Origin: a bacterium
GTDB lineage: Bacteria; Sysuimicrobiota; Sysuimicrobiia; Sysuimicrobiales; Segetimicrobiaceae
Assembly (NCBI GenBank): GCA_035308905.1
Contig: DATGFS010000050.1
Span: 1-64,000, forward strand
DNA: 64,000 nucleotides
Direction of reading: 5' to 3'
The notes under the pieces are model-generated. The model saw nothing but the letters and a program-made list of their open reading frames with translations, was not told the origin of the DNA and searched no databases. How positions within the stretch are numbered: the stretch's first letter is position 1; each line of letters begins with the position of its first letter. The position numbers and the translations under genes are program-made. Of the stretch, positions 2,216-61,725 are shown one piece after another.

Positions 2216-2374
2216 CGCGCACGGCGCCGTGATCCGGCAGCCGCCCTACCCGCAATCCAGCCAGGGCCCGATAACAGACCGCGCGCACGCCGCCTAGAGT
2301 GATACCCGTGGGAGTATAGCGGCGTGCGAGCGCACCCGCCAATCGGCCGCCCCCGCGGCGGCGAGGTGAGCGCG

Positions 2375-2833
2375 ATGCAGATGCACGTGCAGGCGCAGTG
2401 GACGTCCGGAATGCGGTTTGAGGGCGCCAACGCAGACGGGCTCCGCGCTGTGATGGACGCCGATCCTCAGCACGGCGGCACCGCCGGCGGACCGTCGCCG
2501 ATGGAGACGCTGATGCTGGCCCTGGCCGGCTGCACCGGCATGGACGTCATCCCGATTCTTCAGAAAATGCGCGCGCCCGTCGATCGGTTCACGATCGAGG
2601 TGACGGCGGATCGAGCCGGCACGCATCCCAAAGTGCTGACCGCGATCCATCTGCGGTATGTGGCCGCGGGACCCGGGCTCCGGGTCGACCAGGTGGAGAA
2701 AGCGGTCGCCCTCTCCCAAGACACATACTGCTCGGTGTCCGCGATGCTGCGTAAGGCCGCTCCGGTCACGTATGACACGACGGTCATTGACACCCACGCC
2801 GAGCAACCGAGCCTCGCCGCTCCGGCGCGATAG
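2375..2833 (+). CDS. OsmC-family peroxiredoxin-like protein (cysteine form)
   Basis: This 152-aa OsmC/Ohr-fold protein is expected to reduce organic hydroperoxides or handle reactive sulfur in the cytoplasm. The first redox cysteine C53 sits in the helix motif LALAGCTGMD and the second, C119, in the later helix (DTYCSVS), matching the family's two-cysteine centre. ATG 2375 is chosen because GAGGTGAG precedes it; an upstream GTG would add 17 residues unlike the family. It is followed 19 nt later by a CsoR/CstR-type sensor, which may regulate it. A second family member at 19346-19807 has UGA in the equivalent cysteine position. Confidence 0.88.
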   Translation: MQMHVQAQWTSGMRFEGANADGLRAVMDADPQHGGTAGGPSPMETLMLALAGCTGMDVIPILQKMRAPVDRFTIEVTADRAGTHPKVLTAIHLRYVAAGPGLRVDQVEKAVALSQDTYCSVSAMLRKAAPVTYDTTVIDTHAEQPSLAAPAR

Positions 2834-13878: not shown

Positions 13879-13897
13879 CTTTGGTTGCGCCCCGGCT

Positions 13898-14524
13898 CTA
13901 CGCCGGGCGAGACGGCTTCGCGCCGATGCCGCGCATGAACTGGTCCTTCACGAGGACCGGGTCGCGTTCCGGGCGCGCGGCGCCGGGCTCCTGATTCACC
14001 AGCGCGCCGATGAAGCGCGGACCGCGCCCCGCGAGCGCCTCACCGATCAGCCGCTCGAACTCAGCCTCGTCCCGCGCCCACTCGCTCTGCACGATGCCCG
14101 CTCCGCGCGCCACCGCGACGAGATCGGTGGCCTCCGCGGTGGCGGCCGTCTGACCGCCGGTGATCTGGTACGTCCCGTTGTCCCAGACGATGACCGTCAG
14201 GTTCTGCGGCGCAACCATCGCGACGGTGGCGAGCGCGCCGAGGCTCATCAACACCGAGCCGTCCCCTTCGATCACGAAAACACGGCGCGACGGCTGCGCG
14301 AGGGCCACGCCGAGGGCGATCGGCACCGCGAGGCTCATGCTGCCGAGCATGTAGAAGTTCTCCGGCCGGGGGCCGGCCGCGAACAGATCGAAGTTGGCGT
14401 TCCCGATGCCGGCGACCACGATCTCGCCGTGGGTCAGGCGCTCAACGAGCCGCCGCGTCAGGTCGAGCCGGCTCATCGCCTTGCCGCCCACCCTGCCGCG
14501 CGCGTCCGTGCCGGCCGCGTCCAT
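13898..14524 (-). CDS. TPP-dependent decarboxylase, cofactor-binding (beta/ComE-like) subunit
   Basis: This 208-aa C-terminal-half TPP enzyme has GDGSVLMSLGALATV and, 20-odd residues later, WDNGTYQITGGQ, the Mg-TPP binding motif. Split decarboxylases of this kind include sulfopyruvate decarboxylase (ComDE) and phosphonopyruvate-type enzymes. It lies 7 nt behind the alpha subunit gene. ATG 14524 is used; Met17 (14476) is an equally family-like start. Confidence 0.84.
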   Translation of the reverse strand: MDAAGTDARGRVGGKAMSRLDLTRRLVERLTHGEIVVAGIGNANFDLFAAGPRPENFYMLGSMSLAVPIALGVALAQPSRRVFVIEGDGSVLMSLGALATVAMVAPQNLTVIVWDNGTYQITGGQTAATAEATDLVAVARGAGIVQSEWARDEAEFERLIGEALAGRGPRFIGALVNQEPGAARPERDPVLVKDQFMRGIGAKPSRPA

Positions 14525-19023: not shown

Positions 19024-19266
19024 CTAGTGTACGTGTCCGCAGCCGCACGCGCCGCCGCCGCAGCAGCCGCCGCCGGACGGGAGATCTCCGGCGTCGGACG
19101 CCCCGGTGCGCGCCCCCGTCATCACCATCACGGGCGTGAAGACGCGCCTGGCGGCCGCCTTGCCGCACTTCGGACAGGCCGGCAAGCCGCGGCTTTCGTA
19201 TTCGGCGACCGTCGCGATGATCTCGAACTCGTGGCGACAGGACGCGCAGCGAAACACGTACGTCAT
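19024..19266 (-). CDS. FmdB-type zinc-ribbon protein
   Basis: This 80-aa protein has CxxC at the start (FRCASC) and CxxC at about residues 31-34 (ACPKCG), forming one zinc ribbon as in FmdB/RPE65-like regulators. The tail is Gly/Cys/His-rich (GGGCCGGGACGCGHVH), a possible metal-binding extension. Family members are thought to be regulators of amide-metabolism genes, but evidence is thin. It lies 79 nt after the OsmC-family selenoprotein candidate on the same strand. Confidence 0.85.
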   Translation of the reverse strand: MTYVFRCASCRHEFEIIATVAEYESRGLPACPKCGKAAARRVFTPVMVMTGARTGASDAGDLPSGGGCCGGGACGCGHVH

Positions 19267-19345: not shown

Positions 19346-19807
19346 CTATTCCTCGGTGATCTCCCAGGCGTGGGAGATCTCCACGCATCCCTTGAGCGTC
19401 TGCGCGATGGGACAGCCGCGCTCGAATACCGCAAGCGCGCGCTCGGCGTCGGCGCGTTTGCCCTGCGGGATGCGGAGATGATAGGTGACGCGCATCGTCG
19501 TCAGCCGCATCACGCGTTCCGGCGCCTCGATCGTGCCTTCCGCCTCGGTCCAGAGCTTGTCCGGGTGACTTGGGATCCCGCGCGCCTCCAGCGCGCCCGC
19601 GAGGGTGCCGGTCAGTCAGCCCGCGGCCGCGCCGACGAGGTGGTCGAGCGTGCTCGGGAGCTCCTCCTCGGGTTCCATCTTGTAGAAATCCTTGATGCCG
19701 GTGTTCACGCCGTACCGGACCGGCTCGGGAAAGTCTCCGAGGAAGGCCCGCCGGTTGGGACGCTTCTCCTGGTAGACGCGGGCCCGTGCGAGGTGCACGA
19801 CGCTCAT
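19346..19807 (-). CDS. OsmC-family protein with in-frame UGA at the catalytic cysteine: probable selenoprotein
   Basis: Reading from ATG 19807 (GGGAGG 7 nt upstream) the frame meets TGA at 19618-19616 as codon 64, then stays open with clear OsmC homology to TAG at 19346. With UGA read as an amino acid the protein is 153 residues, the normal family length. The UGA falls at LVGAAAG-U-LTGTLAG, the place of C53 (LALAGCTGMD) in the window's other OsmC protein, i.e. the peroxidatic cysteine. The second family cysteine is present as C132 (ERGCPIAQTL). Selenocysteine-containing OsmC-like proteins are known from metagenomic surveys. The alternative, a Cys TGC-to-TGA nonsense mutation, is less likely because both halves are undamaged. 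Confidence 0.8.
19577..19605 (-). other. Candidate bacterial SECIS hairpin downstream of the UGA
   Basis: Counting from the base after UGA, nucleotides 20-25 (GCGCGC) pair with 31-36 around the loop UGGAG, and CCC at 11-13 can pair with GGG at 37-39. This leaves a 5'-side bulge that begins with U14. An apical loop about 26-30 nt after UGA with G residues, and a bulged U on the 5' arm, match the geometry of bacterial SECIS elements read by SelB. High GC makes chance hairpins common, so the element is inferred. Confidence 0.45.
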
Positions 19808-19930
19808 CGATCGCCTCCCTTTCGTTCCACGATCGCGGCGGCGCATCGGCGCCGATCGCCGCGCGTCCGCTGCCGCCGGACCGTGTAACCCTTGATAAAG
19901 GAAAGAAGCGCGGCCGGCGGACGCGCGGGC

Positions 19931-61266: not shown

Positions 61267-61725
61267 TCACCTCCGTTCGCGGAGCAGTGCCAGGACGAGC
61301 AGCCCGGCCCCCACGACGATGGCGGAATCCGCCACGTTGAATACCGGCCAGACGTGAACGTCGAGGTAATCGATGACGTATCCAAAGCGCAGCCGCTCGA
61401 CCACGTTTGCGGCGGCGCCCCCCAGCACCAGGCCGAGCCCCCACCGGACGGCGGCGGTCCGTGGCCAAGCGTCCTTATTGTAGAGGGCCACCGCGAGAAC
61501 GGTCAAGGCGAGCACCACGATCGCCGCCGGCGGCAGGCCGCGCAGGAGACTGAAGGCGATCCCGGTGTTTGATACCAGCGTGAGCGAGAGGACCCCCGGA
61601 ATGACGACCCGTTCAACGCCCGGGGCCAAATGCGCGCGCGCCGCCGCGCCGGCGGCGAGCCCGCCGCCGCACGCCAGGATGAAGCCGGCGGCGCCGGCCG
61701 CCCGTGCGCCGGCGGGCCGGTGCAC
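61267..61725 (-). CDS. lspA: Lipoprotein signal peptidase (signal peptidase II)
   Basis: This 152-aa membrane aspartyl protease has the core VIPGVLSLTLVSNTGIAFSLL and ANVVERLRFGYVIDYLDVHVWPVFNVADSAIV, which carries the two catalytic aspartates (D of VIDYL and D of NVADS). The N-terminal DQxTK stretch found in most LspA is missing, and NVxDR reads NVVER. Start GTG 61725. It precedes lgt by 3 nt, so lipoprotein maturation genes are paired. Confidence 0.9.
   Translation of the reverse strand: MHRPAGARAAGAAGFILACGGGLAAGAAARAHLAPGVERVVIPGVLSLTLVSNTGIAFSLLRGLPPAAIVVLALTVLAVALYNKDAWPRTAAVRWGLGLVLGGAAANVVERLRFGYVIDYLDVHVWPVFNVADSAIVVGAGLLVLALLRERR

Follow-up and report, generated by a model that had tools for sequence, protein, structure and literature searches.

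The OsmC-family gene and its surroundings

The window, that is the whole stretch of 64,000 nucleotides that was analysed, carries on its minus strand, at positions 19346-19807, a gene of the OsmC family that in all probability encodes a selenoprotein of 153 residues, with selenocysteine (Sec) at position 64. From an ATG at 19807-19805 the frame runs through 63 codons to an in-frame TGA (codon 64, 19618-19616) and then through 89 further codons to a TAG at 19348-19346, and a ribosome-binding site, AGGGAGG (19814-19820, minus strand), can be read in the sequence 6 bases 5' of the ATG. These coordinates, the ribosome-binding site, the TGA at codon 64 and the 89 codons up to the TAG had been reported in a first-pass annotation, which gave no strand, and all of them were recovered on re-reading the sequence. 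The same is true of the second cysteine of the family, now placed at C132 (TGT, 19414-19412, minus strand), and of the motif LALAGCTGMD in the other OsmC protein of the window (2324-2833, plus strand). When the TGA is translated as a residue, the protein matches the Pfam OsmC model (PF02566) with 49.4 bits against a gathering cut-off of 27.5. Moreover, all in-frame TGAs of the window were scanned by codon usage for a coding signal on both sides, and only two strong cases emerged, this gene (hereafter Sec-OsmC) and an ordinary overlapping gene pair at 61267, so the coding signal past the TGA of Sec-OsmC is more than chance would give.

Directly 3' of Sec-OsmC lies a gene for an FmdB-type zinc-ribbon protein (19024-19266, minus strand). 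No conserved gene neighbourhood was found for the family, whose neighbours are shared among close relatives only, and therefore no partner of Sec-OsmC can be named. At gathering thresholds Rfam has no match in the window; a 98-nt tRNA-Ile called by ARAGORN at 13891-13988 on the plus strand, overlapping a coding ORF, is thus probably false.

Predicted fold and redox residues

The structure of Sec-OsmC predicted by AlphaFold2, with Cys replacing Sec, has a mean pLDDT of 96, and its best Foldseek matches are all OsmC/Ohr proteins (2onf with a TM score of 0.77, and also 1nye and 1qwi). In a family profile alignment to the OsmC structures 1ukk and 1nye, residue 64 falls on the peroxidatic cysteine and C132 on the resolving cysteine, the latter in the CP motif of 1ukk, and both U64 and C132 are invariant in an alignment of 32 sequences. 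Furthermore, the position ten residues before Sec is occupied by Leu (Leu54) in nearly all members, Asp55 at -9 is invariant and R19 is nearly so.

Hydroperoxide reductases of the Ohr/OsmC type rely on a catalytic Cys, on a Glu placed ten residues before it and on a conserved Arg. From the fold and the redox residues we infer that hydroperoxide reduction is the likeliest activity of Sec-OsmC: the selenolate of residue 64 would attack a hydroperoxide or a similar oxidised substrate, C132 would resolve the resulting selenenic acid as a Se-S bond, and a cellular dithiol, such as a lipoyl group or thioredoxin, would regenerate the enzyme. The label of a strong hydroperoxide-reducing enzyme, which had been attached to the gene earlier, is unproven, in that Leu stands in the place of the Ohr Glu, though the invariant Asp is next to it; that no conserved neighbourhood was found also counts against this enzymatic step. 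Alternatively, the protein may be a selenoprotein whose Sec serves some other redox or nucleophilic reaction, directed at sulfur or selenium species, disulfides or electrophiles. This is a possible reading, though less likely than not, to which the residues at -10 and -9 lend weight together with the deep separation of the Sec branch from the Cys-containing OsmC proteins and with the fact that no NCBIfam peroxiredoxin model scores over its cut-off (TIGR03562 reaches 32.4 of 85.8 bits), whereas the fold and both redox positions are the same as in OsmC, and classical OsmC is the nearest branch in the tree.

Decoding of the in-frame UGA

The genome from which the window derives (4.0 Mb in 81 contigs, 97% complete) was searched for selA, selB, selC and selD, as the first-pass annotation had proposed, and all four are present. 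selA, with a match score of 547 bits, and selB adjoin on contig C33, with tRNA-Sec about 1.7 kb further on, while selD lies on another contig (C3:79138-80058) and has an in-frame UGA of its own within the motif CAGUASK, which makes SelD a selenoprotein as well. With this set, SelD would make selenophosphate, SelA would charge tRNA-Sec, and SelB, acting on a hairpin just past the UGA, would bring tRNA-Sec to the ribosome, residue 64 thereby becoming Sec and not the end of the chain.

Orthologues of Sec-OsmC were found in 21 of the 43 genomes of the phylum, with 49-92% identity to the window protein, and every one of these 21 carriers has TGA at the Sec column. Relatives were also sought in 84,980 species genomes, and the best 80 of 197 were kept; judged by their record titles, they belong to Bacillota, Acidobacteriota, Methylomirabilota/Rokubacteria, Actinobacteria, Verrucomicrobiota, Desulfobacterales and other Deltaproteobacteria, among others, and TGA occupies the column in all of these best 80. 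Across the 88 distinct genes that were aligned and 20 further genes from Bacillaceae, the codon is TGA in 88/88 and 20/20 cases, respectively, and no Cys orthologue of the branch occurs among them. The search patterns were located 5' of the UGA and Cys took the place of Sec in the query, so that any bias of the search would have been towards a Cys form. Two larger sets agree: in 397 genomes of the order that contains Bacillaceae, all 47 full-length genes (from 46 genomes) have one TGA, the column having been checked in 20 of them, and in 396 Acidobacteriota genomes one TGA is present in 31/31 matches that span the column, a count made without checking the column gene by gene. It had been considered at first that close relatives might all have TGC or TGT at this site; the opposite was found.

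In the Bacillaceae-containing order SelB is present in 46/46 carriers against 179/397 genomes overall (Fisher p 3e-18, a value that ignores relatedness and therefore overstates independence). Within the phylum of the window the association is weak (18/21 carriers against 13/22 other genomes, p 0.053), the three carriers without SelB over the cut-off being incomplete or fragmented draft assemblies. Among 50 scattered carriers SelB exceeds the cut-off in 46, and the other four are again draft assemblies.

The sequence after the UGA holds a hairpin of the bacterial SECIS kind, which the first-pass annotation had suggested looking for. This predicted element, GCGCGCU-GGA-GGCGCGC (19580-19596, minus strand), has a loop that begins 27 nt past the UGA, and it coincides with a peak of synonymous constraint within the phylum, at codons 71-77. 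In other lineages the stem shows compensating pairs (GCGCAC/GUGCGC, GCGUGC/GCACGC) or, in some of them, takes another register, which places the loop at 18-21 nt, and in Bacillaceae the GC-rich stem is kept. For bacterial SECIS elements the range is 16-37 nt after the UGA. When a hairpin was counted if it had at least 7 bp, a G within the first two bases of the loop and a distance of 16-37 nt past the UGA, it was found in 83 of the 88 distinct genes, compared with a mean of 11.6 after synonymous recoding and with a frequency of 7.8% at other places of the same genes. Folding energy alone is a weaker signal, and a weak one in the distant lineages outside the phylum. A G in the small apical loop has been described for bacterial SECIS elements (PMC1088965).

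Taken on the genomic record, the gene is almost certainly a genuine selenoprotein gene of the OsmC fold with Sec at residue 64, and the earlier reading of a probable selenoprotein is strongly supported by the machinery, the column-wide TGA, the hairpin, the association with SelB and the fold. A UGA that has been reassigned, for example to Trp, or that is read through without Sec would give a bare frame of identical appearance, but such an origin is very improbable: the genome encodes a tRNA-Trp whose anticodon is CCA, several orthologues of the gene themselves end normally with TGA, every carrier in the order examined also has SelB, and the hairpin has been conserved. Code reassignment was rejected on these grounds, and the Sec column moreover aligns with Cys in OsmC. 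A nonsense mutation or assembly error in an ordinary OsmC gene, which in a single genome would be expected to look just like this, one stop in an otherwise intact gene free of other disabling changes, is ruled out because independently assembled genomes from several phyla share this TGA. Its probability becomes negligible given that the gene evolves under purifying selection both before and after the UGA (dN/dS of 0.05-0.18 3' of it in close pairs), that the hairpin is conserved and that truly decayed or partial copies look different, having extra stops or being fragments in three genomes of the Bacillaceae-containing order (G528, G265 and G445).

Sec-OsmC among OsmC proteins

Further genes of this kind were noticed. 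A second OsmC selenoprotein candidate in the same genome (C21:9076-9492) keeps the first cysteine and has a UGA in place of the second, resolving one, within RUPLYRTVAVATE; thirteen of the phylum's genomes have it, TGA being present in 13/13, and it has a strongly conserved hairpin, CGGUCGC-GGUC-GCGACCG, that begins 14 nt past the UGA. As the window gene and this paralogue have Sec at opposite redox positions, comparing them offers a natural way to test the contribution of Sec to either half of the redox pair of OsmC. In the genus of the window, with three genomes, the second gene shares four bases with the start of a cystathionine beta-lyase-like gene. Methylomirabilota/Rokubacteria have a further OsmC/YhfA-like branch with a UGA at the first cysteine (LGAUTSMT), which scores below the cut-off of NF041052 and forms a single group in the tree.

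The branch to which the window protein belongs may be a Sec-only orthologous group, in which every retained copy retains Sec as well, and decay of the gene takes the place of a switch to Cys; this proposal is tentative, and we rate its chances as slightly below even. If true, it would imply a reaction beyond the reach of Cys, and it would run counter to the comment that Cys homologues now seem to exist for all known selenoproteins (PMC12013277), although Cys members are present in the OsmC family at large. The authors of deep-Sep note reliance on Cys/Sec pairs as a limit of their tool (PMC12013277); as selenoprotein search tools lean on such pairs, they can easily overlook a branch that has no close Cys members, and its genes are then annotated as broken. 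Because the branch is present in culturable Bacillaceae, with an orthologue in Thalassobacillus devorans for example, direct tests of what it does and of whether it requires Sec are possible.

An OsmC-like selenoprotein with a UxxT motif was reported from the Sargasso Sea in 2005 (PMC1088965) and from the GOS data in 2008 (PMC2398784), and is listed in a review of 2026 (PMC13188914). The NCBIfam family NF041052 (OsmC_like_Se) is apparently this UxxT family, since the motif of the members fetched, AFULMT, fits. These proteins and the window branch belong to the same OsmC superfamily, have Sec in the same column, that of the first redox cysteine, and keep the second cysteine. They differ in motif (AFULMT against AAGULTGT in the window protein) and in tree position, and the window protein reaches 15.7 bits with NF041052 against a curated cut-off of 95; membership was rejected on score, motif and tree. 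In the tree the window branch forms one group (support 89/91) adjoining classical Cys OsmC, and NF041052 and two other Sec branches are placed elsewhere, the deep forks being uncertain because the alignment columns are few. The first-pass annotation was thus right that OsmC-like Sec proteins are known from metagenomes, but those form the separate UxxT branch, and the window gene is therefore not simply the genomic copy of the metagenomic family. No named match to the window branch was found in NCBIfam, Pfam or the literature searched, and it is apparently a new, uncatalogued branch within a known kind of OsmC-like selenoproteins.

With the Ohr proteins (1n2f, 1zb9, 6d9n) the window protein has in common the fold of the superfamily and a redox centre of two residues, whereas the catalytic glutamate of Ohr is not conserved in place in the window branch; the window protein gave no match to the Ohr family. 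The nearest Cys branch is that of classical OsmC (1nye and 1qwi from E. coli, 1ukk from Thermus), which has the same fold and both redox positions but is about 30% identical or less, and in which Cys and, at -10, Glu stand where the window branch has Sec and Leu.
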